IMG/VR virus record: IMGVR_UViG_3300022822_000041
Span: 1 to 38,236 of that record
Strand: one strand, 5' to 3'
Length of the DNA stretch: 38,236 bases
From: a virus
The translations under genes were made by a program, and so were the position numbers. The notes beneath the pieces were generated by a model. That model did not search any database, was not told the DNA's origin, and saw only the letters and a list, made by a program, of their open reading frames with translations. Numbering within the stretch: the first letter of the stretch is position 1; the number at the start of each line of letters is the position of its first letter. Of the stretch, positions 190 through 36,200 are shown one piece after another.

Positions 190-795
190 TTAGGCTGTCA
201 TTAACTCTTCGAACTTCTTGATTTTTTCAACTGGCACTAATTCACCGGCTTTGCTTTTTGCTTTCTCAGGGAGGTACTTGTCCAGCGCTGTGGTTGACTT
301 TCTTAGTTGCGCCACTGTGTTCACTGAATCAAGAATGTCCCATACTTCATGGACCAAATTTTTAGCGGGCTTTCTCAATGCGTCGTACTCCTCGATTAAG
401 CCTTTTATTTTGGCGTTAACATCGAAAGTAACAACCCCGGTGGAATTCGGGGATATTAGTTTTAAACCAAGGATGCCTACATAGAAATCGAGCCCGTATC
501 TTACAGATTTTCCTCTTTCTACATTAATCCATACATCTTTGGCCTTTAATTCATAATCCTCACGCATCTTCACCGAACAAGAGCGAATATAATTACCCAT
601 CGCTTCTATTTGGGGTTCCGAAAAAGCAACCGCTAAACACTCTTTAAACCTGAGAGTGTTAAGGCCATATTTTTTTTCCATCTGAGCCCTCACTTCTTTG
701 GTTATCTTCACGTCAAGCGCCTGTATTTTTGATCCAATCTTATCTTTCAAAACGTCTCGTACTATTTTGTCACAAACTGCATGTGTTAATCGCAT
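190..795 (-). CDS. Early protein of unknown function, 201 aa
   Basis: The protein begins MRLTHAVCDKIVRDVLKDK and is mixed-charge and soluble, without membrane segments. Its start resembles phage proteins annotated as nucleotide-modification-associated domain 5 (Nmad5), which open with a RLT-x-x-x-x-x-IV pattern; this is a weak resemblance from memory. An ATG exists nine codons further upstream, but it lies inside the palindrome 815-830; the start element GGAATTGACGAT immediately before the ATG at 795 marks the real start. The gene is preceded by a perfect palindrome and followed by a terminator hairpin, so it is probably monocistronic. Confidence 0.75.
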   Translation of the reverse strand: MRLTHAVCDKIVRDVLKDKIGSKIQALDVKITKEVRAQMEKKYGLNTLRFKECLAVAFSEPQIEAMGNYIRSCSVKMREDYELKAKDVWINVERGKSVRYGLDFYVGILGLKLISPNSTGVVTFDVNAKIKGLIEEYDALRKPAKNLVHEVWDILDSVNTVAQLRKSTTALDKYLPEKAKSKAGELVPVEKIKKFEELMTA

Positions 796-3355: not shown

Positions 3356-4137
3356 GATAATTGCTCCAAAGGTAGTTCTAATTGCGTTATATGGTGAGTG
3401 AAATTAGGCACCACGTATTCTTCAAACATCTCGGCATAGGCGATATCGCCATAAAAACCCCAACAAGAGTCAACCTCCTCGCCCTTGTGCTCCAAGGTAA
3501 AACCCCAAATATTGCCGGTTAAGTAATCATCCCAAACCTTAACGTCTGACGTTATCCAACCCTGAACACGCTCCTCAGTCTTGGCCGAAATACGCTGGAC
3601 ACTTAAATTTTCACGCACCACGGCTTTGCTCTGGCAAGCAAATCCCACGACCCCAGAATCCCAGCGACAAGAAAAGGAACTGGTTGAAATGGTGATACCT
3701 GAATGGTCATAGATATAAACCCACGTCCAAACATACAGAGATGAAAACAACTCCTGAAGTCTCTCAAAAACATCCGCCCCACTTACTAGGCGCTCCTCTA
3801 AGCCATAGAAATAACTTTCAACGTCATAATTTACCTTGTCTTGGATCAAGTCCATCATCGCCGCTCTAACGTCTGAGTAGTTATGCTTTAGGCCAATATT
3901 GTAGCGCCTGTGAAAAGTATAAAGCTGAGTGACCAGCTCCATTTCACAGGGCGGATCCATGCAGTCGGTCTCTCTCACAAACTCCAACTTCCAATCGCCT
4001 TGGGCTTGGAATTCATAACTTTCCTCAGAGGTGAAATTATTTTGGAAAACCGCCTCCACAAGAGCGGGGAGGGCATTGTGTAGGGCCGTTACTTTAGGTA
4101 AAACCCGATTTTTTATTGCTTGTATTTCAGTATTCAT
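3352..4137 (-). CDS. Early protein of unknown function, 261 aa
   Basis: First gene of a three-gene operon. The ATG at 4137 follows the start element GGAATTGACGAT, and a palindrome lies 27 bases upstream. The protein begins MNTEIQAIKNRVLPKVTALH, is acidic and has many tryptophans and tyrosines in its C-terminal two thirds. No family recognised. The four-base overlap with the next gene suggests the two products are made together and may act together. Confidence 0.7.
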   Translation of the reverse strand: MNTEIQAIKNRVLPKVTALHNALPALVEAVFQNNFTSEESYEFQAQGDWKLEFVRETDCMDPPCEMELVTQLYTFHRRYNIGLKHNYSDVRAAMMDLIQDKVNYDVESYFYGLEERLVSGADVFERLQELFSSLYVWTWVYIYDHSGITISTSSFSCRWDSGVVGFACQSKAVVRENLSVQRISAKTEERVQGWITSDVKVWDDYLTGNIWGFTLEHKGEEVDSCWGFYGDIAYAEMFEEYVVPNFTHHITQLELPLEQLS

Positions 4138-4164
4138 ATCGTCAATTCCTAAGGTTGTTTTGAA

Positions 4165-4180
4165 GTGTTCATGTGAACAC
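4165..4180. promoter_or_regulatory. Operator-like palindrome, copy 4
   Basis: GTGTTCATGTGAACAC, one central base different from the perfect palindrome, with symmetric flanking A/T. It lies between the 81-aa gene and the 261-aa gene. Confidence 0.6.
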
Positions 4181-4198
4181 TCCAGTTAAGTTAATTAG

Positions 4199-4594: not shown

Positions 4595-4917
4595 GCGGAT
4601 TCCTCCAACTGACAAGACCAAACATATTCCCCCACGCCATTCTCAACGTGAAACTCATCCGCCACGCCAAACAATCGAATGTTGCTGGCCGTAGGTGCTG
4701 CAAAATTGAGGTTTCGAAAGTTAAAGGGCTTGTCTTCCCACAAGGCAGCATTCAGCAACATGCACGGCAAACCATCCAAAGTAATGTCTATGAGTAGGCC
4801 ATAGGCTTTGTCTAAGCTCATGTAACGCGCTTTCTTGTTGCTTGAATAGAAGAGTACTGCTTTAGGGAGTTCTGTCGCTTGAGAGGGCTCCCAAGCAAGC
4901 TTGTGTATTGTTTTCAT
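4591..4917 (-). CDS. Early protein of unknown function, 108 aa
   Basis: First gene of a three-gene operon with the 48-aa and 81-aa genes. The ATG at 4917 directly follows TTTGGAATTGACG; an in-frame TTG four codons upstream belongs to that element and is not the start. The protein begins MKTIHKLAWEPSQATELPKA and is predicted to be globular and soluble. Not recognised. The promoter-palindrome at 4945-4976 lies just upstream. Confidence 0.7.
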   Translation of the reverse strand: MKTIHKLAWEPSQATELPKAVLFYSSNKKARYMSLDKAYGLLIDITLDGLPCMLLNAALWEDKPFNFRNLNFAAPTASNIRLFGVADEFHVENGVGEYVWSCQLEESA

Positions 4918-4944
4918 CGTCAATTCCAAATTATTGGTTAGTTA

Positions 4945-4976
4945 ATTATATTTTGCCGAAGTGTTCACGTGAACAC
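4945..4976 (-). promoter_or_regulatory. Early promoter overlapping operator palindrome, copy 5
   Basis: A perfect palindrome GTGTTCACGTGAACAC (4961-4976) contains a -35-like TTCACG on the minus strand. Exactly 17 bases downstream is a perfect -10 TATAAT (complement of 4945-4950). This is the clearest sigma-70-type promoter in the early arm. A protein bound to the palindrome would cover the -35. It would drive the 108-, 48- and 81-aa genes. Confidence 0.6.
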
Positions 4977-5515
4977 CCCGACAACCCAGCTAGAGTAGCA
5001 TCCCCCTAAAACCCAACGCAACTACTTCTCAATACCCCAAACTCCAGACTCGAACAACAATTGAAAACCTAGACGCGAGATTTATTTGTTGCATGGCCTT
5101 TTGTTTGCGTGAACCTAAACGAATTTAGGTATAGGTATTCATAAAATAAATTGGGCAGGGGGGTTTTGAGTCATGCCCTTTTCTTTTTAGTTTCTTGAAA
5201 CTTTAAACTAACGGTTTCAATAGAAAAAGTTTAGGCTTTTCTTTTGGTTTTCTGCCACGCTCGCAGTTTATGTTATCATTCATAATCTATTAAAGAGTAA
5301 AAGTTTATTGACAAGATTTTTTTTTCCTTGAGTTAGCTTATAGAAATAGAGCTTAGAGAATTTTGTTCTAAATCCTCTGAACGCGAGTGTAGCACCTAGA
5401 TGGAGGCATAGGGGCCAATCGAGATAAGTTCCTAAAATGAGGGTTTCGGACAAGGCCTGAAAAACGGGCTTTTTTGCTGGTTAAAAAATGAACAGCAAAA
5501 ATGTTTTTAAAACGC
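4977..5515. other. Non-coding or unassigned gap with palindromes
   Basis: No convincing gene. It holds ACCTAAA-CGAA-TTTAGGT (5113-5130), AGTTTC-TT-GAAACT near 5189-5202 next to a second AAAC/GTTT half-site pair, a hairpin TTTTTGCTG/CAGCAAAAA (5471-5479 with 5493-5501), and a plus-strand terminator-like hairpin ending in T6 near 5454-5475. A minus-strand 26-codon frame (5203-5283, with an RGRKPKEKPK basic patch) lacks a ribosome-binding site. The AT-rich stretch 5280-5340 could hold a promoter; TTGTCA on the minus strand at 5309-5314 is the best -35. Confidence 0.4.
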
Positions 5516-5707
5516 CTAGATTAACTCGAAAGTTTCGCCGCAAGTCGACCGCATTTCACGCTCAATTTCACCCAAATAAGCGAGAACTTCGACCATTTTT
5601 GAACGCCAAACTGGACGTAAATCCAGCCTTTTTAAGCCTAAAAAAGCGCCTGTTTTGCTGTTTTTTACCACAATAAGGGTTGTTTTGGTATTGGTATTTA
5701 TACGCAT
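5516..5707 (-). CDS. Small early protein of unknown function, 63 aa
   Basis: The ATG follows the start element as GGAGAATTGACGATG. The product begins MRINTNTKTTLIVVKNSKTG, with a beta-strand-like N-terminal half and a helical C-terminal half ending GETFELI. Not recognised. The leader is long (93 bases from the palindrome at 5801-5816) and contains an A8 run and a short GGCCT/AGGCC inverted repeat just ahead of the ribosome-binding site. Confidence 0.6.
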   Translation of the reverse strand: MRINTNTKTTLIVVKNSKTGAFLGLKRLDLRPVWRSKMVEVLAYLGEIEREMRSTCGETFELI

Positions 5708-6005
5708 CGTCAATTCTCCGATAGGCCTGAGGCCGTTGTTTTTTTTGGGGCGGTCTAGGTTAATACTTAGGCCGTTGGGGGTGTTAAAGATTTTTGTAAA
5801 GGGTTCACGTGAACACCTTTAAAAACCCACATGAAGCCGTTTTGAGGGTGCTACAAAAGGGCTTGATTTAGGTTCTTGGGTTTGGTTTTAGGCTTTGCGG
5901 ATGGTTTTCAGGGTGTTTAATATCCGCTAAAAGCACACATTATGTTAAATTGGTAAAGCTTTCTTTCGGGCCTTACCTCAGTTTTTGGGACTGTGCCAAA
6001 ATTTC
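5708..6005. other. Early intergenic leader region
   Basis: About 300 bases without a supported gene. It contains a palindrome copy (5801-5816), two copies of AGGCCGTTG (near 5730 and 5770), a GGCCTGAGGCC repeat followed by T8 on the plus strand (about 5724-5746), and a GCGGAT/ATCCGC inverted repeat near 5897-5928. A plus-strand reading frame across 5950-6195 overlaps the better-supported minus-strand small genes and is not called. Confidence 0.4.
5801..5816. promoter_or_regulatory. Operator-like palindrome, copy 6 (one base deleted)
   Basis: GGGTTCACGTGAACAC. Restoring one missing T in the left arm would give a symmetric 24-base palindrome including the flanking AAA/TTT. It is probably a decayed or tuned copy; it lies upstream of the 63-aa gene. 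Confidence 0.5.
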
Positions 6006-6238: not shown

Positions 6239-6258
6239 TTTATTTCCTTAATAATGGG

Positions 6259-6274
6259 GTGTTCACGTGAACAC
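6259..6274. promoter_or_regulatory. Operator-like palindrome, copy 7 (perfect)
   Basis: GTGTTCACGTGAACAC, 20 bases upstream of the ATG of the small membrane protein. On the minus strand TTTTACAA precedes it. Confidence 0.7.
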
Positions 6275-6291
6275 TTGTAAAACCTGGCGAC

Positions 6292-6379: not shown

Positions 6380-6423
<44 letters not shown>

Positions 6424-6452: not shown

Positions 6453-6486
6453 AAAACAAAAGTATTCACGTGAACACTTTTGTTTT
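6453..6486. promoter_or_regulatory. 34-base palindrome built on operator copy 8
   Basis: Two 17-base arms (6453-6469 and 6470-6486) pair with a single mismatch. The core is GTATTCACGTGAACAC (6462-6477) and the arms extend as AAAACAAAA/TTTTGTTTT. It follows the terminator of the 248-aa gene rather than preceding a start codon, so unlike the other copies it may act as a terminator, barrier or origin element. Confidence 0.65.
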
Positions 6487-6548: not shown

Positions 6549-7295
6549 TTAGTGTGCTTCATGGGCCGTCTCGGGGCGCATGCTATTGACTAACTCCAGC
6601 ATGGCCTTGCTCACTAGCACGCTTTGCTTATCGTTCAACTTGGCTTCAGTCTTAACACGTTTTGTTAGCTCGATGACCTTCGCGTCAAGTAACTTTTGAA
6701 CCTTGGTTAGTTCGGTATCAATGGCCGATTGCATAACGGTCGCAGCTGGTACGGTCGCAGCGTCCGCTTGCTTGCCCTTGGTTGCGGCCTTGGCTGGCTG
6801 TTCTTTTTTCGCTGGCTTGTTTACGGCTTTAATCTTAGTTTCTACGGTAGGAATGAAGCCGTTTAAGAATTCCATCCAATCGGTACGGTTTGAAGGCGCT
6901 TCAGTTTTGCCGAAGTCTATGGCCGTGAATATTTGCTTTGCAACATCGCTGTAGGCCTTGCTTAAGTCGACCGCTTCGACTTGCTTAAGTACTGGCTTTA
7001 GGTGCTCGACATTGGCTTGAATTGGCTTAACATAACGTGAGAAGAAATTGTGTACTTTATTATATAAAGGATGTTTCTTTTTGTTCGGTTCGGCTTTTGT
7101 GCCCTTGATATTAAAGAACGCTAATAATTCGGGTTCTTTTGTGCAGTCAATCGCTGGGTTGTTAATAAAGGCAAGCGCAAGTGCTACGCGGACGCTATCG
7201 GCTTGCATCTCGCCTTGTGTTGCGGCTTTCAAAAATGAGGTCGCTTTAGTAGCTGAAAGAATGTTGTTTTTAGTTGCTGTAGTTAATGTAGTCAT
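6549..7295 (-). CDS. Early protein of unknown function, 248 aa
   Basis: Start fixed by GGAATTGACGAA immediately before the ATG at 7295; an ATG 12 codons upstream lies in the palindrome. The N-terminal part (to about 155) is alpha-helical. A lysine/alanine-rich linker (about 163-185, KPAKKEQPAKAATKGKQ) looks disordered, and the C-terminal 60 residues look like a coiled coil. The pattern suits a nucleic-acid-binding or scaffolding protein, but no family was recognised. It is probably a single-gene unit, with a palindrome upstream and a strong terminator downstream. Confidence 0.7.
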   Translation of the reverse strand: MTTLTTATKNNILSATKATSFLKAATQGEMQADSVRVALALAFINNPAIDCTKEPELLAFFNIKGTKAEPNKKKHPLYNKVHNFFSRYVKPIQANVEHLKPVLKQVEAVDLSKAYSDVAKQIFTAIDFGKTEAPSNRTDWMEFLNGFIPTVETKIKAVNKPAKKEQPAKAATKGKQADAATVPAATVMQSAIDTELTKVQKLLDAKVIELTKRVKTEAKLNDKQSVLVSKAMLELVNSMRPETAHEAH

Positions 7296-7323
7296 TTCGT
7301 CAATTCCTATTGTGTTGTTTGAA

Positions 7324-7339
7324 GTGTTCATGTGAACAC
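7324..7339. promoter_or_regulatory. Operator-like palindrome, copy 9
   Basis: GTGTTCATGTGAACAC inside the symmetric AAGTGTTC-ATGT-GAACACTT. It is 28 bases upstream of the ATG at 7295 and has the same core as copy 4. It is the rightmost copy found. Confidence 0.65.
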
Positions 7340-7619
7340 TTGTTAATGTTATCCGCGTTTTGCGGCGCTGGGCTGTTCCAACGTGTAAGCACTATAGAAG
7401 GGGGGGTGCTAAAACTGCAAGCATTAGGGGCTAAGTGGGGGGGCAGCCCCCTCACCCCACCCCAAAAATTTTCCGAATTTCACTCCGGTGTAACCCAGTA
7501 CCTCAATGCAAAAAACTAGCAAAAATACCAATAAACCAGCGATTGTTACAAACTGTTACCGATTAGCGACAAATAGGTCTTGGTTTAGACCTTAAACTTT
7601 TGTAGTATGCCTCTCGTTG

Positions 7620-7650: not shown

Positions 7651-7807
7651 ACGCGCACTTTCTTCCTGCCTGGTTGTGTTAGTGCGTTAACTAAGTGTTC
7701 GCAGGTTAACTTATGTGATGGTAAGCGAGCTGCGGCTATGGAGTCTTAGGAAAGGTTGGACCAATAAAATCGGCTCTTGGGGAGTGATGAACCCAATGAT
7801 AGTGGTG

Positions 7808-7823
7808 TTTGGATATTGACGAT
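7808..7823 (+). promoter_or_regulatory. Orphan copy of the start element, no start codon
   Basis: TTTGGATATTGACGAT is identical to the element before the portal and protease genes, but ATAATTC follows instead of an ATG. No supported frame starts here. It lies about 90 bases upstream of an intrinsic terminator. Confidence 0.65.
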
Positions 7824-7910
7824 AATTCACAAAGTAGTTAACTTTGCTAACCTCACTCCGTGGTCAAGCTGGGTTATTAAAAATGAAAGTTTATACTGCG
7901 TGGTAAAAGC

Positions 7911-7930
7911 ACCTCTTCGGAGGTTTTTTT
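7911..7930 (+). terminator. Intrinsic terminator, probably bidirectional
   Basis: ACCTC-TTCG-GAGGT followed by T7 on the plus strand. On the minus strand the same hairpin is followed by GCTTTT, so it may also end leftward transcription from the helicase gene, whose stop is about 100 bases to the right. Confidence 0.75.
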
Positions 7931-8031
7931 ATGTCTGGAGAAAAGTGCGCCCTGCAGTTTACCGCCGTATGATTGCTCCCGCAGGATTCCTGAGCTGGGC
8001 GTGCGATTAGCAAGACGCATGGACGCATTGG

Positions 8032-10439: not shown

Positions 10440-10931
10440 TTAAGTCTCCTGGTTAAACGCTTCTAAGTTATCGACGAATTCTGTTTTTTGAATGGGGGAT
10501 AGGTAACGGTCCATCGAATCAATCATAATCTCTTTGAACTTTTTAAAGTGCTTTACCCCAGAGGCTCGCTCTTGAGATTCAATCATCTTTTCAATCAGTG
10601 AAACCAGTAGGCGAAAGACAGCTGCTTTTTCAGTGGTGTCATCGAGGTTCAAACTGTTCTTAAAGGTTCTCATTTCAATGAACAGCTGCAGGGACTCTTT
10701 CTCAAAATCAATAGAATCTATATCGGGGATGACTTCGCCGTCTTGGTCGTAATACTGGTCATTGGCCACCACAGTGGAGGTAAAGGCTTTTTCTAACTGC
10801 TCAATTTGAGTAGACTCATAAGGGCAGTCTGGATTAGATAAGTAATCTGGGGCATTTTGAATCAGCATAGACAGTTTGTTTATGGAATTCATTACGTCAG
10901 GGGTTAGCTCAGGGTAGCTGTATATGGTCAT
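10440..10931 (-). CDS. Unknown 163-aa helical protein, possible small terminase candidate
   Basis: The ATG at 10931 follows GCATTGACG, a variant of the start element. The protein is acidic and helical: MTIYSYPELTPDVMNSINKL at the start, then in the C-terminal half a helical block (FRLLVSLIEKMIESQERASG, then a second helix and SPIQKTEFVDNL). That helical block is reminiscent of some phage small terminase subunits, and the gene abuts the large terminase gene, but it is divergent from it and precedes the helicase in an operon. It could equally be a replication accessory protein or helicase loader. Confidence 0.65.
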   Translation of the reverse strand: MTIYSYPELTPDVMNSINKLSMLIQNAPDYLSNPDCPYESTQIEQLEKAFTSTVVANDQYYDQDGEVIPDIDSIDFEKESLQLFIEMRTFKNSLNLDDTTEKAAVFRLLVSLIEKMIESQERASGVKHFKKFKEIMIDSMDRYLSPIQKTEFVDNLEAFNQET

Positions 10932-10959
10932 CGTCAATGCTCTATTTTGTATTTAGGTT

Positions 10960-11001
10960 TGATATGATACCGTGCGGCTCAACAATTTGGAATACGACGA
11001 T
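10960..11001 (+). promoter_or_regulatory. Putative late promoter and leader of the terminase operon
   Basis: TGATATGAT (10960-10968) matches an extended -10 (TGnTATAAT) with one change and has no clear -35, as in activator-dependent promoters. The predicted transcript begins close to ACAATTTGGAATACGACGAT (10982-11001), a diverged copy of the phage start element placed 23 bases before the GTG start rather than directly on it. Confidence 0.5.
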
Positions 11002-11024
11002 AATTAAAACACACTGGGGTATTT

Positions 11025-12809: not shown

Positions 12810-12824
12810 ATTTGGATATTGACG

Positions 12825-14273
12825 ATGGCCAGTAAGCTACTAACTAAGTTTAAGACAATACTGCCGACTAGGGCAAAGCCTAAGGGCTCAACGGAAACGC
12901 CAACCTACGATTCTCAAAACTCGACTGAGGTATTGGCCCTCCCGGACTTTCAGGAGCATTTGGCGGACTTAATTGTTAGTCGAACTACTCAAAACTCCCA
13001 AGAGTTAATTGAAGGGCTGTTGAAATCTGACCCAGATGCCTCCAGTGCACTTCACTCCTACCTTACTACCTGTGACTCAGTTGAGCCGTACATTATGGTC
13101 AAAGATGCTGATGGCCTTATTGACCGTGAAGGGCACCAGTTGGTTAACGAGATTATTGAGCTACTGGAAACCAGACGCGATTATTCCAAAGGGTTTGTAC
13201 ACAAGAAGAGCTTGCGCCAGTTGGGTGAAGAGTTCCGATATATGATGTTGGCGCAGGGGGGTATTTGTGCTGAGGCCATCATGGGTGACCAGCTGGAGCT
13301 GACTGAAATTCGCGTGATTGAGCTTGCGAGTATTCGTTTTCAGGAGAAGGGGCCGGGTTTATTGGTACCTTATCAAGACACCGGCCAAGGGGACCCAGTT
13401 AAGATTGATATACCCACGTTGTTTATGGGTTGGTTTAGAAAGTCGCCAAAAGATGCGTATTCTAATTCTCCGTTTGTCAGTGCAATTAATACGATGGCTG
13501 CGCGTCAGCAGGTTATTAACGATTTATATCGAATTATGCAGTTGACAGGTTTCCCTCGTATTACGATCACTGTTCTTGAATCGGTCATTGCTGACTCGGC
13601 TCCGGCGGATATCCGCACCAACCCAAAAGAGCTGCGCCAGTATATCAATGCGCGGAGACGGGAGATTGGGGGCCAGTTTGCTGCGGTAAGAGCGGACCAG
13701 CCAATTGTCACTACGGATAGTGTTAAGTTTGGCATGCTAAACGAGAAGAACCCCGCTGCGGGCTTGGATGTAAGTCAGATAATTGAGGCATTGAACGCAC
13801 AGAACCAAGCGGGTCTATTAACAATGGCTACCGTTTTGGGTCGGGGTGAAAGTGGGGTTAACACGGCAACGGTTGAAGCTAACTTGTTCTCAATGAGTGC
13901 AAACAGTTTGAATGCCCCCATTGCTGAAATGCTCGGAAAAATCCTCACCTTGGCGTTACGCTTCCAAGGCTCTGAGAGTAGAGTCATTGTTAAGTATCCG
14001 GATGTTGACTTGCGCTCGGAGCTCGAATTAGAGTCTCAATTAATGATACGTTCTCAGCGTTTACGTCAAGACCTAAGCGATGGTCTATTGACTGACGATG
14101 AATATCACCTGATGATGTACAGAAGAATTCGTCCAGAGAACTCCCCTGAACTATCAGGGACGGGTTTTAATAGTAATAAGATGGAAGTGGATGTTGCGAA
14201 GATATCTCCTAACAGTGACCCTGTGGGGGCCTCTGTTAGCAAAGCTTCAGATAAGCAAGCTAAATCAAATTAG
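12825..14273 (+). CDS. Portal protein
   Basis: 482 aa. It forms the ring at the capsid vertex through which DNA is packaged and to which the tail attaches. The call rests on length, on its place between terminase and protease, and on a portal-like pattern: a variable start, a WFRKSPKDAYSNSPFVSAI stretch with helices (about 205-225), and a helix-rich C-terminal half with a polar tail. The start is the ATG after TTTGGATATTGACG; a TTG two codons upstream belongs to that element. It begins 15 bases after the terminase stop. Confidence 0.85.
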   Translation: MASKLLTKFKTILPTRAKPKGSTETPTYDSQNSTEVLALPDFQEHLADLIVSRTTQNSQELIEGLLKSDPDASSALHSYLTTCDSVEPYIMVKDADGLIDREGHQLVNEIIELLETRRDYSKGFVHKKSLRQLGEEFRYMMLAQGGICAEAIMGDQLELTEIRVIELASIRFQEKGPGLLVPYQDTGQGDPVKIDIPTLFMGWFRKSPKDAYSNSPFVSAINTMAARQQVINDLYRIMQLTGFPRITITVLESVIADSAPADIRTNPKELRQYINARRREIGGQFAAVRADQPIVTTDSVKFGMLNEKNPAAGLDVSQIIEALNAQNQAGLLTMATVLGRGESGVNTATVEANLFSMSANSLNAPIAEMLGKILTLALRFQGSESRVIVKYPDVDLRSELELESQLMIRSQRLRQDLSDGLLTDDEYHLMMYRRIRPENSPELSGTGFNSNKMEVDVAKISPNSDPVGASVSKASDKQAKSN

Positions 14274-14301
14274 CTAACTAAATAAAATTTGGATATTGAC
14301 G

Positions 14302-15480
14302 ATGGCAAAGAGACTTGAGCTAACCGAAAGAATTAAATCCTTGATTGCGAAGGCCGTCGGGGATGATGTTGATTTCACAAAGATAGCCGCTTACGAGGCC
14401 GTCAGTGCGTCTACCCGCCCAATAAGCCAAAGCTATTCTCCTTACGATGGTGCCCAGATGACCCAAGCTTTCTTGCAAGAGATGGCGGATTATCTGGAGA
14501 CCGAGAGCGTCCCTAAACTGGTGATGCACGAAGGCCATATGTTACCTATTGGTAAAGTCTTTCACGCTGATGTTCTGGCTAGTGAGAACGGGCACTTCGA
14601 TTTGAATTCCTTATTTTTTGTCCAATCCCAGAGTGAATACGCCGAGAAAATAGACCTTGGTATTATCGACGAAGTGAGTGTGGGCGCGTTACCTAATCAT
14701 GCGTATTGTTCAGAGTGTGACTTTGATTATGCTGCTCCAGGTAACGAAATGAGTTTTTACTATAGAGAATGTGACAACGAGCATATGTTGGGCGTCGATG
14801 GCGTTCACCTACGTTTAACCGGTCTCAAAAAGTGGAAAGAACAGTCGCTAGTAGGAAAGGGGGCGTCTAACAAACCCAAAATACTAGGTTCGGCTAAACA
14901 AAGATTGAGTAAAGAAGCGTATCAACAGCTTGCCGCAGATGGGATGAGTCCTGAAGCGATTGAGATGGCCTACCTTTTGTGCTCTGCAACCCAAAAAACT
15001 AATGACGAAGGTGACCCCATGGATTTGAAAGCATTAACAGACCAAGTGGTAAATCTATCTTCAGAGAAAACTAAAGCAGAAACAAAATTGGAGTTGGCAG
15101 AGACAAATCTGCTAACAGCCAATGCTTCTGTGGAATCTCTGACGGCTAGAGTTACTGAACTAGAAGCGAGTCTTGAAGCGGCGAGCAATGGTGAAGATAA
15201 AACCAAATTAGAAGAGGTTAACGTTAAGTTGGCTGAAGCTAAAACGGTTTCAGATTTCGTGGCTAAACAAGCTAACTTAGCTTGTGTGGCAGCGGGTATC
15301 GAGCTTAAAGAAAGCGCGACAGTGATTGAACAAATCGCGGCCCTTGAAGAAGCTCAAGTGAAATTGGCCAACATCCCTCGCGGCGGTGTGGCTCTCGGTG
15401 CTGGCGGTGTGGAGGATGAACTTGTTTTATCTTCACGTGCAAGCGAAGCTAGAAACAGTGCTTTTGTAAGTACACGATAG
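14302..15480 (+). CDS. Prohead protease fused to scaffold
   Basis: 392 aa. The N-terminal part looks like an S78-type prohead protease: histidines in MHEGHM (76, 79), the VSVG strand with candidate nucleophile Ser126, and the EQSLVGKGA block (180-188) typical of the end of the fold. Between them is a possible zinc-binding insert, CSEC (136-139) with Cys157 and His161. From about residue 240 to 345 a lysine/glutamate/alanine-rich coiled coil acts as scaffold; the protease would remove it during capsid maturation. The start follows TTTGGATATTGACG. Confidence 0.8.
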   Translation: MAKRLELTERIKSLIAKAVGDDVDFTKIAAYEAVSASTRPISQSYSPYDGAQMTQAFLQEMADYLETESVPKLVMHEGHMLPIGKVFHADVLASENGHFDLNSLFFVQSQSEYAEKIDLGIIDEVSVGALPNHAYCSECDFDYAAPGNEMSFYYRECDNEHMLGVDGVHLRLTGLKKWKEQSLVGKGASNKPKILGSAKQRLSKEAYQQLAADGMSPEAIEMAYLLCSATQKTNDEGDPMDLKALTDQVVNLSSEKTKAETKLELAETNLLTANASVESLTARVTELEASLEAASNGEDKTKLEEVNVKLAEAKTVSDFVAKQANLACVAAGIELKESATVIEQIAALEEAQVKLANIPRGGVALGAGGVEDELVLSSRASEARNSAFVSTR

Positions 15481-15883: not shown

Positions 15884-15935
15884 GGTTAGCTCTTTTCTAC
15901 AGTACAGTTTGTAGTAAAAAATTTGGAGATTGACG

Positions 15936-17135
15936 ATGAACACAAGACCATTAACCGAAATTAAACGCGCCCCACTAGCGGTCGTGTTGGGACAAATCCT
16001 TTCGGATAACCCGAATGAATCAAAAGACTCAGGCTTAAAGCTTATCAGCGATGCGAAGAAATTTGGGGTCTCAATACGAGATTACCTTACTCTATCGGTT
16101 GACGTTGCTGCGTCTGAATCAGACACGAAACGTTTTAGATCACAAGACGGTTTAATGAGCGGTTACGAAGCTACACTAGCTGAGATGAATCTGCCATTTA
16201 AAAACGCTTTCCGCCAAGGTATCACGTTGCAAGCTGCAGCAGATACGTTTGCAATGCGTCCAGGCTCACGGGCTTTATTCCCGGAAGTAATAGACGACAT
16301 GATGCAGTGGAATACTCGCCAGGATATGTTTGAAACAACTCAAGGGTTGGTTTCTCAAACACGTACTGTCACGGGTAACGAAGTTATCACTCAAGCGATT
16401 TTCGACGACCAAGGCCAGTTGAATACAGCGCCGATTGCTGAATTAGCCAACGTGCCAATTCAAACAATCAAAAGCTCTGACCGTGCGATTAAGTTCTTCA
16501 AACACGGTTCAGCGATTCGTACTTCTTACGAGTTCGATCGCCGTGCAAGCTTAGATGCGTTAACGCCGTATGCGAACCGCGTAAACCGTAACCTAGAAAT
16601 TAGTAAAGTAGGTTCTTTGACCTCATTGCTAGTCAGTGGTGATGGTGTTCACGTTGCAGCTACCGCTTACGCGGGCTCTACGTTTAAGAACTGGGATGTT
16701 GCGGGCACTAAGTCACTTAAAGACAACTACGTTGCGCTTGCTGACTTCCTAATGCAGCGGGCTCGCCAAGGTACACCAATAGACATGATTCTCTGTAGCT
16801 ACGAAATGTGGTTAGAGCTTTTCTTAATGTTTATGCCGGTTACTGGCAACAAGTCGGTTGCAGAGCATTTACAAGACCGTGGCGCTCCTAACATGGGTCT
16901 AGCTTTAGACTTCATCCAAGGTGTTAGCGTACGTATCGCTAGTTCAGCTCCAGCCGGCAAGTTGATTTGTTACTCAGTAGCAGACACAGCTGAAGAGCTT
17001 ATCGAGTCTGGATCATTGTTGAATGAATCTGAGACAGCGATTAAGAACCAATCAATTACTTATGTTAAGACAATGAACATGGGTTACCGTTTGGTTTATG
17101 GCGATACGCGTCATATCTTCGACACAACTTCGTAA
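15936..17135 (+). CDS. Major capsid protein (HK97 fold)
   Basis: 399 aa. It builds the icosahedral shell. Length, position after protease and decoration genes, and layout fit: an N-terminal helical arm, a PFKNAFRQGITLQAAADTFA region (about 89-108), a central domain, and a C-terminal strand (QSITYVKTMNMGYRLVYGD) typical of the HK97 A-domain end. The start follows TTTGGAGATTGACG, the strongest form of the start element, as expected for the most abundant protein. A TTCG hairpin follows the stop. Confidence 0.87.
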   Translation: MNTRPLTEIKRAPLAVVLGQILSDNPNESKDSGLKLISDAKKFGVSIRDYLTLSVDVAASESDTKRFRSQDGLMSGYEATLAEMNLPFKNAFRQGITLQAAADTFAMRPGSRALFPEVIDDMMQWNTRQDMFETTQGLVSQTRTVTGNEVITQAIFDDQGQLNTAPIAELANVPIQTIKSSDRAIKFFKHGSAIRTSYEFDRRASLDALTPYANRVNRNLEISKVGSLTSLLVSGDGVHVAATAYAGSTFKNWDVAGTKSLKDNYVALADFLMQRARQGTPIDMILCSYEMWLELFLMFMPVTGNKSVAEHLQDRGAPNMGLALDFIQGVSVRIASSAPAGKLICYSVADTAEELIESGSLLNESETAIKNQSITYVKTMNMGYRLVYGDTRHIFDTTS

Positions 17136-20412: not shown

Positions 20413-20467
20413 AACTAGGTCCTCGTTAGTAAGGTATTAATAATAACCTAAAATTTGGAGATTGACG

Positions 20468-21304
20468 ATGGCCGGTGACGCTAAATCAACTAACTTTATG
20501 CTGGGTACTGCCACAGTAATGCTCGGCACCCCGGAAGAACTATACGCGCTAAACCCTGTAGCCCACAGCTTAGGCTTAGTAAAGAATTTTAACATCGATG
20601 CTTCGAAAACCACTACGGACCTTCAGGGTGGCCGAACCAACGAAATCATCATGACATTGACCACAGGTGCTGAAACTCGTTGCACTTTTGAAATGTATGA
20701 ATACACTGAAAAGAACATTGCTTACGCTCTAGGTCTTGAAGGGTCTGGATTGGTAGCTGTTTCGGGGGATGCTTTTGTGTCGTCTTCGTCAGCTACTTTC
20801 TCAGCTGGATCGATAGAGATTTCGGTTGCGGATGGCCTAGGTCAGGACCTTAGTGCGGGGGATACTGTTAGTTTGCGTAATTCAGATGATGAGAATATTA
20901 TTATCGGTACGGTAACTGCAGTTTCTGGAATTGCCACTGGAACGGCTTCTGGCGGCACAGCATCGATTACGATAGCGGTACCGGATACGACCTTAGCCAC
21001 TGCGTTACCTGTAGGTACTGAAGTATCTCAAGTAACATCCCTTGATGTTGGTTCTACTGACGTTGACCGTGATTATTCGGCGAAGATAACTGGCCAGTTG
21101 GCAAACGGTAAATGGGTAACGTTATTGTTCCCGAAAATCCGTATTAGCTCGGGTTTATCTATGGCGTTCTCAACGGATCAGTTTGGCAACATCCCGTTTG
21201 AGTTTAAGCCCCTAAAACCATCTTTGGTGGATAGCAACTACGCGGCGTTCAAAGGCCGTTCAGGAACTATCAGCATTGACTCGGTAAAAGCCCCACTGGC
21301 GTAA
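20468..21304 (+). CDS. Major tail tube protein with extra beta domain
   Basis: 278 aa. It polymerises as stacked rings to make the tail tube. The sequence starts MAGDAKSTNFMLGTATVMLG and contains an insert (about 105-200, rich in Ser, Thr, Gly, Val) that looks like an immunoglobulin-like or surface domain between two halves of the tube fold. The start follows TTTGGAGATTGACG, the same strong element used for capsid and tape measure. A strong terminator follows, which would allow extra copies of this product. Confidence 0.8.
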   Translation: MAGDAKSTNFMLGTATVMLGTPEELYALNPVAHSLGLVKNFNIDASKTTTDLQGGRTNEIIMTLTTGAETRCTFEMYEYTEKNIAYALGLEGSGLVAVSGDAFVSSSSATFSAGSIEISVADGLGQDLSAGDTVSLRNSDDENIIIGTVTAVSGIATGTASGGTASITIAVPDTTLATALPVGTEVSQVTSLDVGSTDVDRDYSAKITGQLANGKWVTLLFPKIRISSGLSMAFSTDQFGNIPFEFKPLKPSLVDSNYAAFKGRSGTISIDSVKAPLA

Positions 21305-21361: not shown

Positions 21362-21380
21362 ATACCTACAGGAATTGACG

Positions 21381-21746
21381 ATGCAAATGAATAACCCCTC
21401 TCCACGATTCGAAGTTACCTTTAACAATACTAAAAAAGAAGTGTTTATGAGCTTCGGCCTAGTGAATACGATTGCCGGAATGTTTGAAGACATGAGCCAG
21501 CTTACTGAGGCATTTACCAACCCACATGTCCGAGGCGCTCTGGTGGTTGAATGCTTATCAGAGCGCAATGAAAATGGCGGTCTAGTAAAAGAAATAGATT
21601 TGAATACACTGGGCATAGAAACAGAGCATTTATTTGAATTCCTTACTTGGGTGGAGGCCCACGTTTCTGATTTTTTTACTCAGAGTTTGGTAAGGGCGAC
21701 GAGCTCGATGCGGAAAAAAGCTCAGGGAATGAAAGAAAAACCCTAG
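21381..21746 (+). CDS. Tail assembly chaperone, short form (gpG-like)
   Basis: 121 aa, MQMNNPSPRFEVTFNNTKKE at the start. It lies between the tail tube and tape measure genes, where lambda has G and GT. The short protein coats the tape measure with the longer frameshifted form during tail assembly and is absent from the virion. It ends KKAQGMKEKP. The start follows GGAATTGACG, the early-type form of the start element. Confidence 0.85.
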   Translation: MQMNNPSPRFEVTFNNTKKEVFMSFGLVNTIAGMFEDMSQLTEAFTNPHVRGALVVECLSERNENGGLVKEIDLNTLGIETEHLFEFLTWVEAHVSDFFTQSLVRATSSMRKKAQGMKEKP

Positions 21747-22033: not shown

Positions 22034-22050
22034 AAATTTGGAGATTGACG

Positions 22051-25000
22051 ATGAGTACCGGTAACCGTATTAAGCAAACCCTGTTGAATGTTGGTGTTGA
22101 CCCGAAAGGCATCAAAGACCTAGACAGAATGGTCAAGCAGTTTCAGGCTTTAGAGAAAGCCATGAAAGACGCGGGCAAGTCTTTAAAAGATGCGGTTCCA
22201 GAAATCACAAAAGACAATTTGAAAAAGGGTGGTACCCCTGTAGATATAGGTCAAACCACCCAGTATCGTAAATTGTTAGATGCTCAAAAACAAAATATTA
22301 AGGGTGTTAGTAATCAATTCGTAAGCGACATTGTTAATAACAAAGGTTTAGGCTTAACTAGAAGTCAGAAAGCTGACGTACAACGTTCGTTCAATAACAC
22401 CTTCAAAGAAATGATGGGGGATTTCACAGGGAGCCTAAAAAAACAGGTAAAAGCCCAGCGTAAAACCCTAAACGATTTCTATACTCAGGAGTTTAATAAG
22501 CGTCCGGAGATTGCTCGTCGTACTCCGCTAACTCAAAACCAAGCCCGCAGTTTACGCGGGAATGAGTTACAAGCTGGCCTAGAGGCCACAAAAGTGCAGC
22601 TTAGAGGTGCGCGAGCGGGGCTTTCTTTTGCCCAAAAGAACGAAGGAAATGACAAGTTACTTACGCAAGCAAACTCTGAAATTAAGCGCTTAAGTAAAAA
22701 CCTGAAGCTAGGTAACGAGAGATTCGAAGACCAAACTCGGATACTTAGAAAACAATCCAACGTTGCAGCCAAGGCGGGATTTAAAGACCCAGCATTAGCC
22801 CGTTCAACGAGTTTCTTTTATAACGATCAGTTTAGAAGAAACCCAGCCACAAGTCGCTTGCCCGCTATCGATGGAAGCTCTTTAGGAACTCTTGGGGCTG
22901 GGGACCTTAGAGCGCAGATAGCCAGCCAGAAACTATTACTCAAAGGGGCCAACAGCGCCCGAGATATTGGCCAAGAAACCCGCAACACTAAGCTTGAGAG
23001 TCAGGCCTCACGCTCAATTAAAAGCCTAAGTGAAAACTTAGACAAAGCCACGCTTAGATTAAAAGAGCTAGAGAAAGCGGCTAGAGATGCTGCAGCTGCC
23101 GAGAAGAGAGCAACTACGGCTGAAACTCGTAAAGTTAATCAGCAATCCAAAGAACAACTTCGCCCAACGGACCAGCAACGCCGAGTCAATAACGCGATGG
23201 AGCGAAACAAACAAAACTCAGTGAATCGAAACATCGATGGGGGGGCCGGTCTTTTTAGACAGCAAGCCTCCCTCTTAAGAAACTATGCTGTTCTTGGTGG
23301 CGGCGTTGCTGCTGGCGCAGGAGCCGTCAGTTTCGCCGTCGAGCTACAAAAAGAATTCAAACAGCTGCAATCAATCGTTGCATTGACGAATACTGAAATG
23401 ACGGAACTTGAGGAAACCTTAATTGGGGTTTCAGAGAAAACCAAGTTTAGTGCATTGGATGTAACTCAAGCGGCGGTAACCTTAGGTCAAGCAGGTCTAG
23501 GAAAGAACGATATTGGCAACGCAATAGAAGGTGTGACGCTTTTCGCCACTGCGGTAGGTTCTGACCTTAAGTCAGCAGTAGACCTCGCTACGTCAACTCT
23601 AGGGGTCTTTAACAAGGACTCTTCGGAGATGGTCAACATCGTCGATAAGATGACGACTGCGGTGAACAGCTCAAAACTTAACTTGGATAAGCTTGCCTTA
23701 GGTCTTCAGTACTCAGGTAACTTGGCAGCACAATCGAATGTGAGCTTTGAGGAGACGGTTTCGGCCTTGGCAGCGATGGCCAACTCAGGTATTCGTTCGG
23801 GCTCAACGCTAGGTACCGGCTTACGTCAAATTATTATTGCTTTGCAAAAGCCGAGCGCGGAATTTAAGGATATTATTGGTGGCCTTGGTCTTACAATGGA
23901 CCAACTTGATATATCCTCGCGCGGATTAGTGCCAACCTTGAAGCTACTTGCGGATGAGGGTTTTACCGTCAGGGATGCGATGAAATCGATGCAGGTTAGA
24001 GCGGCCTCTGCTTTCGGGGCTTTTGCCAACAACATTGATGTTGCCGATGAGTTGCAAAAGAAAATGCGACTGAGCGGCTCAGCCACGCAAGCTAACGCCG
24101 TACAAATGACAGCCCTAGCCTTTCAGTTGGAAAGACTATATTCCATCATGAAGTCAATCGCGTTCAACGCTTTTGAGCCCGTGATTAATAGCTTAACTAA
24201 GTTGGTTGAGAAGACCGGCGATTGGTTAAGTCAGCTTAGGGAGATGAAAGGACTTATATCCTTAATCGGCCCAGGCCTTGCTATTTATGCTACGGCTGTT
24301 GGTGCACGCTCAGTCGGAAGACTTGGCGTGGGTCTTTTGAGCGGTGGGGCGAGTCTTCTTGGCGGTGCGGCTATCGGCGGTGGTAAAAAGGCCAGCCCCG
24401 AGTCGCGCACGATGGGTAAACTGGCCACGGCTATTTCTGGACGCGGGGGCCTATTAAGTGTCTTAGGCGGATTATCCCGCTTACTATCTTTCTTGCCAGG
24501 TTTTGGTATTGCTGTTGCTGCCGGTACGGCGGGGGTCCTAGCCTATAATGCTTTAGATTCTCAAGAGCGCAGCCGTGACCGAGTGGATACGACTCAAGCG
24601 CGTATCAATGAAAACGATTCTGACATTGAAACTTATGAGGCCCGGGTCACTAAAATAAATGCCGCAATTATTGAGTTGATGGATAACCAACACTTGCTTG
24701 CGGATGATAAGGAGCTTAACCGCCGTATCCAGCGTTTGAATGATGACTTTAAGCTTCAGGGTTTATACCTTGATGATAATGTCACCAGTTACGCAAACCT
24801 AATCGATAAGATGAAGGAGTTTAGAAACGAAGCCATTGAGAATAGGGATGTGCTTACGTTTAGAGACCGTGATTCTTTCTTGGAGAACAACAAAGCGGTT
24901 ATCGATGAGCTGTTTAGTAATGACCAAGAAAGCGAAACTATTTTGGATAGTCGTTTCGATCGTTTGATCAATCAAACGGATCCGAACGCTGACGGCGCAA

Positions 25001-27559: not shown

Positions 27560-27952
27560 ATGGCCTTGCAAACTTTTAATTTTCCGTACCACTCAGTGCA
27601 AACTGAATACCCCAACAGAGGGCTTTCGGTGGCCCTGGGGGGCGGCTGGGAATATACCGTTAAACCAAACACGCCGATAGCGGTAGATTTAACCCTAACT
27701 TTTGCTGCGATGAAACGCTTTGATGAGGGCTTAGTGCTGACCGACCGACAAGAGGATATCAGCCTTGCTCGTCTTGAAACATTCTACAGAGAACATGAGA
27801 TGCACGAATACTTTTTGTATGAGCACCCAAATTTAGGTAATATGGTTGTTAAGTTTTCAGCCCCGTTGGTCGTTCCTCCGGGGACTATTGGCGGAGATGG
27901 GGCCGTATTAAACCTGACTTTTCGGTTAAAACAGAGGTCAATAGGTTACTAA
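27560..27952 (+). CDS. Minor tail protein (gpM-like)
   Basis: 130 aa. It directly follows the tape measure and has the pattern of the lambda M / distal tail family: NFPYHSVQTEYPNRGLSVAL near the start, a helix with RLETFYREHEMHEYFLYEHP, and a C-terminal strand pair ending LTFRLKQRSIGY. It helps start tail assembly at the tip. The ATG lies 1 base after the tape measure stop. Confidence 0.75.
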   Translation: MALQTFNFPYHSVQTEYPNRGLSVALGGGWEYTVKPNTPIAVDLTLTFAAMKRFDEGLVLTDRQEDISLARLETFYREHEMHEYFLYEHPNLGNMVVKFSAPLVVPPGTIGGDGAVLNLTFRLKQRSIGY

Positions 27953-28014
27953 TTAACCTTTTATCAATTAAATGAATAAAATAGCTTGTAAATGGGCTTA
28001 AGTATAGGTAATCT

Positions 28015-28099
28015 ACACTCCGGTTAGCTTGCTACGGTAAGTTGATTATCGTCAATTCCAACATCAACCCCGCATTCATCGTGTGGGGTTTCTTTGTTT
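28015..28099 (+). ncRNA. Candidate antisense small RNA against the phage start element
   Basis: The segment lies between the M- and L-like genes and codes for nothing recognisable. It contains ATCGTCAATTCC (28048-28059), the exact complement of GGAATTGACGAT, the early form of the start element. A stem GTTGAT (28041-28046) with ATCAAC (28063-28068) places those bases in a 16-base loop. An intrinsic terminator ends the unit. A possible promoter is TTGTAA (27986-27991), 17 bases, then a poor -10 TAATCT (28009-28014). The RNA could block ribosome binding on early messages. It might instead be a relic of a leftward gene's start region. Confidence 0.35.
28066..28099 (+). terminator. Intrinsic terminator before the L-like gene
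   Basis: A 9-bp stem with one G-T pair (AACCCCGCA with TGTGGGGTT) around TTCATCG, followed by TCTTTGTTT. It sits 50 bases before the next start and would end the candidate small RNA or weaken read-through from upstream tail genes. Confidence 0.6.
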
Positions 28100-28147
28100 A
28101 TAGCCTGGAATAAGTTAGACTCAGGTTTAAAATTTGGAGAATTGACG

Positions 28148-28636
28148 ATGCCGGAAATTAGCGCAACTTTTAAAGAGGAAACTCAAAGCCTCTCACCTAC
28201 AAAACCTCTTACGTTTATAGAAATTCTTTTCGAAGACCATCTAGCCAACAACATTGCGCTGCGCTTTACCGATGGCGATACTGTTAATTGGAAGGGCCAA
28301 ACCTGGTCTAATCAACCTTTTAAAATGACGTCGATAATTAAGTCCTCTTCAGGGGAAGTTACCCGCCCAAAGCTCACTCTTCCGAATGACCAAGGGTTGT
28401 TCTCAGCTTACGTTTCTAAAAAGGTTCTGGACTTCGCAGAGGTTAATTCCTTTAAATGTTCTCCCTTGGAGCTGGATACCTTTGACGGGTTTCAACAAAG
28501 TTTTGTGGTATCTCATGTTGTCAGCTTATCTCAAGAAGCAATCACTATGGAATTAAGAAGAGCGAGTGATGGCAATAATTTTCGGTTACCCCCTAAGCGA
28601 TATACTCAACCAGAATTCCCAACGGTGATCGTATGA
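28148..28636 (+). CDS. Minor tail protein (gpL-like)
   Basis: 162 aa. It joins the tail tip under the M-like protein. The layout fits the L / DUF1833-like group: strands in the first 80 residues (FIEILFEDHLANNIALRFTD, GQTWSNQPFKM), and a C-terminus ending LPPKRYTQPEFPTVIV. Only one cysteine (FKCSP) is present, so the iron-sulphur cluster of lambda gpL is probably absent. The start is fixed by TTTGGAGAATTGACG; the frame is open for 18 more codons upstream through non-coding sequence. The end overlaps the next start (ATGA). Confidence 0.7.
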   Translation: MPEISATFKEETQSLSPTKPLTFIEILFEDHLANNIALRFTDGDTVNWKGQTWSNQPFKMTSIIKSSSGEVTRPKLTLPNDQGLFSAYVSKKVLDFAEVNSFKCSPLELDTFDGFQQSFVVSHVVSLSQEAITMELRRASDGNNFRLPPKRYTQPEFPTVIV

Positions 28637-33200: not shown

Positions 33201-36200
33201 GTGGCACAAACCACGCAGCTAAACGCACCTACGGAAGTAACCCCGTTAGCCTCGCCGGATATTAAAGTACTCGCGGGAAGCATTGTATTAACGCCCCCAA
33301 GCATTGTAAAAAGCAATCGGGTTTATCAATTCAAGTACAACACCGTAAATAATATTAATACGGCCCTAGATGGTGTCAGTGGCAACGCCTTAACGATTAA
33401 CAACGTGATAGGCGGGCAAACTTACTACTTCTGGTATAGAAGCTCGTCTGAGGCCGGTGTGGGCTCTTGGAGAACTACTTCTGCAGTTGGGCAAGAGCAA
33501 ACGCTTTATGATTGGAAGGTGTGGGCTAATGATGCAGCGGGGGCTGGAATTTCTGTGGTTGAGGGGGATAGGCCTTATGTGGGTATCAGCTCAGGCCATA
33601 CAACATCCACGCCAGTAATTACCGACCCAAGCATTTACACCTTCATCTTAAAGAAGGGTGAGAAGGGTGATGAGGGGATACTCCCAGCCCCAACTGGGAA
33701 TCCAGGGCTTTTTGCAAACGACACGCACCTCGGTTATCACGATGGAACTAATTGGGCAACTTACTTTGATAGCGCAGGTAGGCTTTATCTAAACGGGTCC
33801 AGTGACTTAACCAGTTTCTTCTACTTTGACGGCGGGGATATGCGCCTGACAGGGTTTGGAGATTTCGATGGTGGTCTTCGAGCTGACTTAGACGGGGCTT
33901 ATATTGGTGTGGGTCGTGAACCTGCTGCGGACTATAGCGGGGGTTTTGCTACTTCCGCAACTTTTGCGGAAGCGATAATGGGCTTTGGTTTGCAGTATAT
34001 TAAAGCCACAGTCCAAGGCATCTTCATGGAGGGGGATGTGTATGTAAACAACACATTGCTTACCGATATTGTGGCTAGTGGCGCGAATAACAGCACTATT
34101 TCTATCAGTGCCGGAGACTGTTTGACTACAGGCGGGAGCTTCACGCTCAATCAAAGCTCTAATAAAACAATTACCATCGACCATGGTTCTCTGGCGGCTT
34201 CAATAGACTATGGCGTAAAAAACAGTCTAGCCGTAATCAACTTCATATCTCAAGACAGTTTTGGACATCTAAAGTCAGCCGAAACGATAGACCTAGCTGC
34301 AGAGTTTGCTAAGTATATTCCGAAAACTTCGATTAACACTTCAGCCACCTCTACGAGCAGTACTACGGTTGCTGCTTCTAGCGCTCTTAGGAGCGTGTAT
34401 TTGACCGCTAATGATGCCTTACCTAAAAGTGGTGGTTCCTTAACGGGTAACCTCAGTATGGGGTCTAATAATGTTATATTTACTAGCACGTATGGACTTC
34501 AGTCTACTGGACCGTGGTTGAAGCTAAGTACTGCTCATGGATATATCGAATTTGGGCCAGCTAATGCTACTTATGCTCATATTTATACTGACCGACCTAA
34601 TTTTTATTTTAATAAAGAATTACAAGTATTAGGTAAAGAAGTATACCACGCAGGGAATATCCCAACGTGGGACCAAGACACTACGGGTACGGCTGCTAAT
34701 GCGAACCAACTAGCAGGTAATCAAGCAAGTTACTACAATCATCGTAATTATAATGATGTAACCAACTACTTAGGTGGTTATTATGTATCCGGGGGCTCTG
34801 AGAAACCTAACGGCTCTTTATTTGGTTCTGGTAGATTAAAGCTTGCAATGCTTGCAGGTTCAAACTTAGGAGTCGTCGGTACGTGGCATGATGTTCTATG
34901 GTTAAGTGGTTACTCTGGCGGGGATGTTAAGACCTCTACAGCATTAAGCTTTAGTAAAAACACATCAGGCGTTCCAGTTGTTAACATCTTACAGCAAGCA
35001 TTTGATGCTCCGGCTTGGGGTACTCCTTATGAGATATATCATACAGGTAACATTCCAACGTGGGATCAGAGTACAACGGGTAATGCAGCAACGGCAACAA
35101 ATTTAGCGAATATACCTACGAGTTTTAACGGTACGTATCCTATGGTCGTTAATGCCAGCGGTACGCTATATAGTGATGCCGGAGTTACTTTTAGAGGTTC
35201 CGACAACACGCTAACTTGTACTAACTTTGCGGGCAACGCGTCAACAGTGACTGATGGTGTTTATCTCAACGCTAACAACGTCCTGAATGGTAACAATGAG
35301 TTTAGTAGCACTGACACAAGTGGTAATTATGGTACTGCGGGTATAGAACTACGTGAAGTTGGGCGTGTTGGCAATGCCCAAAGTGTTCCTGCTTACGCAC
35401 CGGCATTATCCTTTCACTGGGGACAGCGAGTACAGGGTCGTTTAGCATTACACTCCGATAGTAGGTTTCATTTTACAGATGGAGGAACACACACTACTTA
35501 TAAAGATGTTCAAGCAAGGACTTTTTATGGTGCTTTAAATGGTAATGCCACAACAGCCTCAACAGCTTCTAAGGTCACATTTAATGCAGCAGACACTTCT
35601 AATAATAACTGGAAGGTTCTTTGGGGTAACAGCTCAGACTACGTCTATCAAACTGCGGGGTTCACATTTAACCCTTCTAAAGGTGAGTTACAAGTTGGAG
35701 GGGATATTGTCTGTGGTACAGACGTTAGAGTGCAAGGTACAGGTTCAAATACTGCTCCTGCTACTGATGACTTGATGTTAAGCGGGTATGGTCTTATGGG
35801 CAACCGTGGAAATATTTACATCACGAATAGCTCAGGGGATGTGTCAATTGGTTCAGGGAATGTACATGGTTCATCTACAAAGTTAATTATTAGTAACAAC
35901 TCTGTCAACATATATAATAGTAACTTACTGATAGGTGGAACTGAGGTAATTGCGGCTAATAGGGCAGCTACGTTTCCTTCCGTACAACTAGGCTCTATAG
36001 TTTTAAGCGAGAGTACTGATAGCAGTGGATTACTTAGGATATCTGATGCTACTACAACTTGGTCAGGGATACAGATAGGAAATAACACTGAAGATTTGTG
36101 GTCATTTATGGCTGACGGTGATACCGCTGGTATATACAACGACTCAACTAATGAATGGCACATCCTGTTTGCCGACAATGGGGCTACTCAACTACACCAC

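Follow-up and report, generated by a model that had tools for sequence, protein, structure and literature searches.

A candidate antisense RNA in a tail-gene gap of a temperate phage, complementary to a start element at about 31 phage genes

What might be encoded by a short non-coding segment that lies among phage tail genes and reads as the complement of the phage's own translation starts? The question is raised by a 195-bp gap between an M-like gene (27560-27952, phrog_34212) and an L-like tail gene (28148-28636, phrog_18) in the 38,236-nucleotide stretch of viral DNA analyzed here, which is termed the window. A first-pass annotation had proposed that a small RNA, transcribed from this gap with the late genes, covers the ribosome-binding sites of many early messages and acts as an early-to-late translational switch. 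As to its core, though not its use, the locus is quite probably a trans-acting antisense sRNA that represses translation phage-wide.

The window covers part of the genome of a temperate phage whose tail module is lambda-like. An IMG/VR contig of 66,179 bp (G001) overlaps it at 100% identity, and the far end of this contig repeats the window start (joins checked), giving a unique genome of ∼76.3 kb. Distant relatives are phages of 78–85 kb: Pseudoalteromonas KB12-38, whose portal is 59% identical to that of the window phage, Xylophilus Lumi, Achromobacter JWF and 2-1, Caulobacter Seuss and Acinetobacter EAb13. A megablast of the second half of the window against phage records gave no match, and a tRNA/tmRNA search of the window found none. 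An Nmad5 nucleotide-modification-associated domain (PF18757), barely over the cut-off, is found at window positions 190-795 on the minus strand, and among the genes of KB12-38 are some with the annotations DndB and PAPS reductase; these findings are suggestive of DNA modification in the phage group.

The candidate sRNA comprises ∼77 nt on the plus strand (28021-28097). Its 5′ end is placed 7 nt downstream of the −10 box, where the sequence CGGTTAG also begins the RNA in related phages, and its 3′ end is placed at the terminator U tail. The predicted fold has a free energy of −26.2 kcal/mol (z = −4.3) and consists of a 5′ hairpin, an 18-nt linker and a terminator. The 5′ hairpin (28022-28047) is present in both the minimum-energy and the centroid fold, with z = −2.9 for the 5′ half. 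The antisense element ATCGTCAATTCC (28048-28059), the exact complement of the start element GGAATTGACGAT, follows in the single-stranded linker, which reaches ∼28065; the mean predicted probability of being unpaired is 0.96 over the 12-mer. The intrinsic terminator hairpin (28066-28090) is followed by TCTTTGTTTA, and the feature listing of this terminator gives the downstream tail as TCTTTGTTT.

Thus the non-coding segment with its perfect complement to the start element and the terminator behind it are both present as first described. The drawing of the antisense sequence in the loop of a GTTGAT/ATCAAC hairpin fares differently. Such a hairpin can be drawn, yet the predicted fold places GTTGATT in the larger 5′ hairpin as its 3′ arm, and the small hairpin was rejected in favor of a 12-mer exposed in the linker. 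When the exact hairpin pattern was searched in IMG/VR, eight matches were returned, one of them the window's own phage (L009); with 17 fixed bases several are expected by chance, and the remaining matches were set aside. No Rfam family scored above the gathering threshold in the window.

The start element is abundantly found in the window. With up to two mismatches it occurs 19 times, compared with 2.7 expected from shuffled sequence. Apart from the antisense copy itself, exact copies are located on the minus strand at 78-89 (an exact 12-mer, gene starting near 79), 796-807 (gene at 795, 13 nt of pairing), 4138-4149 (gene at 4137, 13 nt) and 4916-4927 (gene at 4917, 14 nt), and on the plus strand at 21371-21382 (gene at 21381, 12 nt). 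Further minus-strand elements lie at 2157-2168 (gene at 2156, 10 nt), 5706-5717 (ORF at 5707, 11 nt), 7296-7307 (gene at 7295, 11 nt) and 10930-10941 (gene at 10931, 9 nt). On the plus strand, the tail gene L next to the sRNA has its element at 28138-28150 (11 nt). Pairing over 9 nt is found there at 12815-12827 (portal gene at 12825), 14292-14304 (gene at 14302), 15926-15938 (probable capsid gene at 15936), 20458-20470 (gene at 20468) and 22041-22053 (gene at 22051, whose 1835-amino-acid product is the probable tape measure by size and place). The lengths given in the first-pass annotation for the starts near 79 and at 795, 4137, 4917, 7295 and 21381, and for most late starts, agree with these values.

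Over the ∼76-kb phage, 31 ORF starts are complementary to the loop (the antisense sequence of the sRNA), with 9–15 uninterrupted pairs and duplexes of −13 to −23 kcal/mol. Shuffled loops match a mean of 0.26 ORF starts. The real loop matches 35 before and 31 after removal of duplicates, which arise where the contig end repeats the window start; as target genes were called from mechanical ORFs, the exact numbers may move by a few. In 29 of the 31 targets the complementary run ends within −2 to +2 of the start codon, such that the Shine–Dalgarno (SD) sequence and usually the AUG are covered. The predicted seed is therefore both accessible (linker 96% unpaired) and complementary to ribosome-binding sites beyond chance (31 targets against 0.3 for shuffled loops), and the earlier suggestion that an sRNA-like unit could mask the SD and start codon in many messages of the phage finds support in the sequence. 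Targets span the late strand (portal, probable capsid, probable tape measure and tail gene L) and also include genes of the early strand. Genes with the element are preceded by a median gap of 53 bp, compared with 2 bp for other genes, and thus tend to lead transcription units.

In some leaders the element lies upstream of the SD; one of these is the leader of the terminase gene (start 11025), with a degenerate element at 10989-11003 (plus strand). Terminase leaders of related phages (L170 8884 (+); L181 9697 (+)) also have the element upstream of the SD, each with its own phage's variant letters. Such placement, with letters specific to each relative, suggests that the element is maintained as a binding site and not merely as part of the SD.

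Other copies and repeats occur in the window. A sense copy of the element, TTTGGATATTGACGATAA, is found in the region 7806-7930 (plus strand) with no start codon directly after it and no evident gene; it lies ∼85 nt before a terminator-like hairpin, cacctcttcggaggttttttt (7911-7931), and may titrate the sRNA as a decoy or sponge. A near-perfect palindrome, GTGTTCACGTGAACAC, is present in eight copies in the early region (89-111, 809-831, 4159-4181, 4955-4977, 5795-5817, 6253-6275, 6456-6478 and 7318-7340), most of them just upstream of early-gene start elements. It resembles an operator at which a repressor or activator of the phage could bind. A non-coding GT dinucleotide run of ∼40 bases is located at 6380-6420.

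A unit consisting of a promoter-like sequence, hairpin, antisense stretch and terminator is found between the same two tail genes in 16 records including the window phage, as determined by inspection of the DNA after gene M. The other 15 are KB12-38, G003, G007, G014, G015, G016, G019, G020, G021, G023, G024, G025, G027, G028 and G043, the last a Comamonadaceae MAG. The records represent about nine distinct types. The 5′ hairpins differ too much in sequence between relatives for confident alignment. In a portal tree all records with the sRNA form one clade (100/100), and all relatives without the gap fall outside it; relatives outside the clade also do not have the element.

The loop of each record complements the start element of its own phage although the elements differ. 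The element is GGAATTGACGAT in the window phage, GGAAATTGACGAT in the G016 group, GGAAATCGACGAT in G019 and G020, GGATTGACGATATG in G028, GGATTGACAAT in KB12-38, GGATTAACANACATG in G043 and of the TCGACGATG type in G003; GGATTAACA is also among the elements that vary together with the loop. In G014/G015 and G007 the match of the loop to the adjacent L start is shorter (∼10 nt). The element was also recovered in the sRNA clade by de novo word enrichment at ORF starts, a test that is blind to the loops and for which G007, a 6.7-kb fragment, was too short to be included. The same test gave no element in six gapless relatives (G006, G040, Lumi, EAb13, JWF and Seuss). Of the 40,320 ways in which the loops of eight genomes can be assigned to those genomes, the cognate one scored best, both with runs of ≥10 pairs and with runs of ≥11 pairs, which indicates that seed and targets coevolve. 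With wobble-tolerant energies it ranks 16th of 40,320, as would be expected if close types cross-pair. The G019 loop has G where others have A; 20 of its elements are of the T form (wobble) and 14 of the C form (exact), and this phage is apparently halfway through a G-U wobble intermediate. The annotation had named relatives that keep the element but lose the loop as one observation that would speak against it. None was seen, and the loop is kept and covaries wherever the site is readable in the clade.

These comparisons bear on three other readings of the locus. The first holds that the element is a site in double-stranded DNA, or a site for an RNA-binding protein, and takes the inverted copy in the gap for an operator or decoy. 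The motif is indeed short and repeated, and it occurs in the genome in either orientation. However, the start elements always read in the sense direction and keep a constant position relative to SD and AUG, and the gap copy is always antisense and always between the 5′ hairpin and the terminator, an arrangement needless for a DNA site; a protein that recognizes the sense RNA would find its site missing from the antisense RNA. This reading is very improbable.

A second reading, that the linker targets the ribosome or that the elements mimic rRNA, derives from the occurrence of GGAATTGACG in the universal 907 region of 16S rRNA, the segment of the universal primer site. The window loop matches this segment over 10 nt, whereas loops of related phages match it over only 4–8 nt (KB12-38, 6; G003, G019 and G043, 4 each) and yet follow their own start elements. 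As these loops depart from the rRNA sequence, the resemblance was dropped, and the reading is hardly credible.

The third takes the minus strand of the gap to carry the sense start element of a tiny peptide gene. The element does read in the sense direction on that strand, and an ATG directly follows it in KB12-38 and G028. There is none directly after it in the window, G016, G019 or G043, and the terminator, together with the promoter in related phages, points along the plus strand. The mini-gene was rejected as not conserved and can be given almost no credence. In KB12-38 and G028 (L017 13848 (+), L175 271 (+)), the strand opposite the sRNA displays the full sense element and, directly after it, the ATG; the antisense segment thus looks like a copy of an entire start region, start codon included.

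The predicted accessibility of the seed is not uniform. The predicted folds of KB12-38 and G043 have most of the antisense stretch paired (probability of being unpaired ∼0.2), so that it would need opening.

How the RNA would be produced bears on the proposal that it is transcribed with the late genes. Most related phages display a sigma70-like promoter of their own just upstream of the sRNA: in eight of 10 distinct regions the −35 and −10 boxes match at 9–10 of 12 positions and are suitably spaced from the RNA 5′ end, and over the 10 regions the mean score is 8.9 compared with 6.8 in shuffles. The window's candidate, TTGTAA-17-TAATCT (27986-28014, plus strand), sits at the place homologous to the promoters TTGACA-17-TAGTAT/TAATCT of related phages. 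It matches at 7 of 12 positions, a chance-level value shared with G028 and one that shuffles equal or better (p 0.66). Transcription with the late genes is thus not supported by most relatives, although the sRNA could also be cut from late transcripts.

Selective arrest of early messages in the lytic cycle by an sRNA made with the late genes was the use first proposed. In the window phage early starts do pair in longer runs (mostly 10–15) than late starts (mostly 9), and the sRNA is encoded on the late strand within the late tail operon. Against this, the portal, capsid, tape-measure and tail genes are targeted too, and sRNAs of related phages have their own sigma70-like promoter. Mean pairing energies for early and late starts are −19.0 and −17.8 kcal/mol in the window phage, −20.7 and −20.2 in G016, and −18.0 and −18.1 in G014; neither G014 nor G016 displays the early preference. 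In G019 it is reversed for exactness of match, as the letter matching the loop exactly (C) is found at six late starts against two with T, and at eight early starts against 18 with T. The selectivity is therefore not upheld, and the early-to-late switch is improbable.

A protein partner for the sRNA may be encoded by the phage itself. A ProQ/FinO-family gene (PF04352) is located at 33730-33963 on the minus strand of G001. The domain scores above cut-off in all 10 near-complete phages with the sRNA and in none of 10 gapless relatives without it; the phage ProQ profile matches solved chains of ProQ, RocC and FinO in the PDB, and a scan of viral contigs with the phage alignment gave matches from the sRNA clade only. 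Since sRNA, element and ProQ share one clade, this co-occurrence represents one origin, not many. Proteins of the FinO/ProQ family bind terminator hairpins that have a 3′ tail, and at the traJ ribosome-binding site the pairing of FinP is promoted by FinO (PMC9977716). The predicted fold of the sRNA has a terminator hairpin with a single-stranded 3′ tail, the ligand form expected of FinO/ProQ-dependent RNAs. By analogy, the phage protein would bind the sRNA and probably aids it as a chaperone.

The mechanism that we infer, from expression of the sRNA to pairing in vivo, repression and timing, would proceed as follows. The linker would pair with about 31 phage mRNA leaders, usually from the SD through the start codon, and would block ribosome binding at genes that mostly lie behind an intergenic gap, early and late alike. 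The ProQ/FinO-family protein would stabilize the sRNA and speed pairing, as FinO does for FinP. Much of the phage genome would be silenced at translation in a single step, and one small RNA might thus shut off a large part of the phage's protein production at once.

Several known systems share parts of this scheme. As with FinP/FinO of F-like plasmids and Inc/FopA of pCol1B9, an antisense RNA with a terminator hairpin would pair at a ribosome-binding site or leader, and a FinO/ProQ-family protein, on which the phage sRNA may depend, is encoded on the same mobile element (PMC9977716). FinP and Inc, however, are cis-encoded with full complementarity to one target, whereas the phage sRNA is encoded apart from its ∼30 targets, which lie elsewhere in the genome and not opposite it, and matches a tag of 12–15 nt. 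Antisense RNAs acting on phage messages are also represented by c4 of P1/P7, which blocks translation and underlies heteroimmunity between related phages (PMC12197685), by P22 sar, which also blocks translation, and by lambda OOP. Unlike c4 and sar, which target ant in each case, or OOP, which targets cII, the RNA described here has no single target message, such as the one antirepressor message of c4-type RNAs, but a tag at dozens of starts (∼31 genes with one element).

The T4 RegA protein is similar in that one phage regulator acts over ∼30 initiation regions, at or just before the AUG (PMC3014915). It differs in being a protein with A+U-rich sites that have no clear sequence conservation, compared with an RNA and an exact shared tag. 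By analogy, the sRNA likely works as an RNA counterpart of RegA and resembles FinP/FinO in its probable use of a chaperone. Other regulatory RNAs encoded by phages are STnc6030 (BTP1), which gives superinfection exclusion via antisense pairing to one phage gene, and the Hfq-dependent VpdS (VP882) and PreS (lambda), which act on host and phage RNAs and on host dnaN, respectively (PMC12197685). None of these three has been described with a common phage start tag. In the open-access literature (subscription journals and preprints lay outside the search) no description of the element, the RNA or the arrangement was found.

As to the use of such an RNA, a tyrosine integrase is found in all 10 near-complete phages with the sRNA. 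In the eight records searched for repressors, no classical S24-type repressor was found and HTH_3 was found in four, so the integrase is the single pointer to a lysogenic setting. The favored role, drawn by analogy with c4 RNA heteroimmunity in P1/P7, is the silencing of stray lytic messages in the lysogen and of messages from superinfecting phages with the same element type. It is put forward tentatively, at somewhat short of an even chance. Silencing of this kind would account for the large number of tagged leading genes and for the divergence among tag types. A brake in the lytic phase is unlikely; other uses are rather doubtful. The broader picture, possible but well short of probable, is of a temperate clade with a private start tag on dozens of genes, one antisense sRNA with a ProQ-type chaperone, heteroimmunity types among related phages set by the joint divergence of tag and reader, and RNA-level immunity to superinfection acting genome-wide in place of a repressor that acts at a few promoters.

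Phage antisense RNAs found described mostly target one phage message. If the present reading is correct, one RNA acting on about one-third of the phage genes via a coevolving tag would represent a regulatory logic that is new, with translational addresses spanning the genome, and phage-encoded ProQ/FinO proteins would have a concrete job. RNA-level superinfection immunity could then be tested with a named isolate, Pseudoalteromonas sp. KB12-38, together with its phage, and the matched natural pairs of sRNA and tag would be usable for building translation switches. Dozens of tags, repeatedly rewritten along with one loop, would provide an unusually clear case of coevolution between a regulator and its targets.
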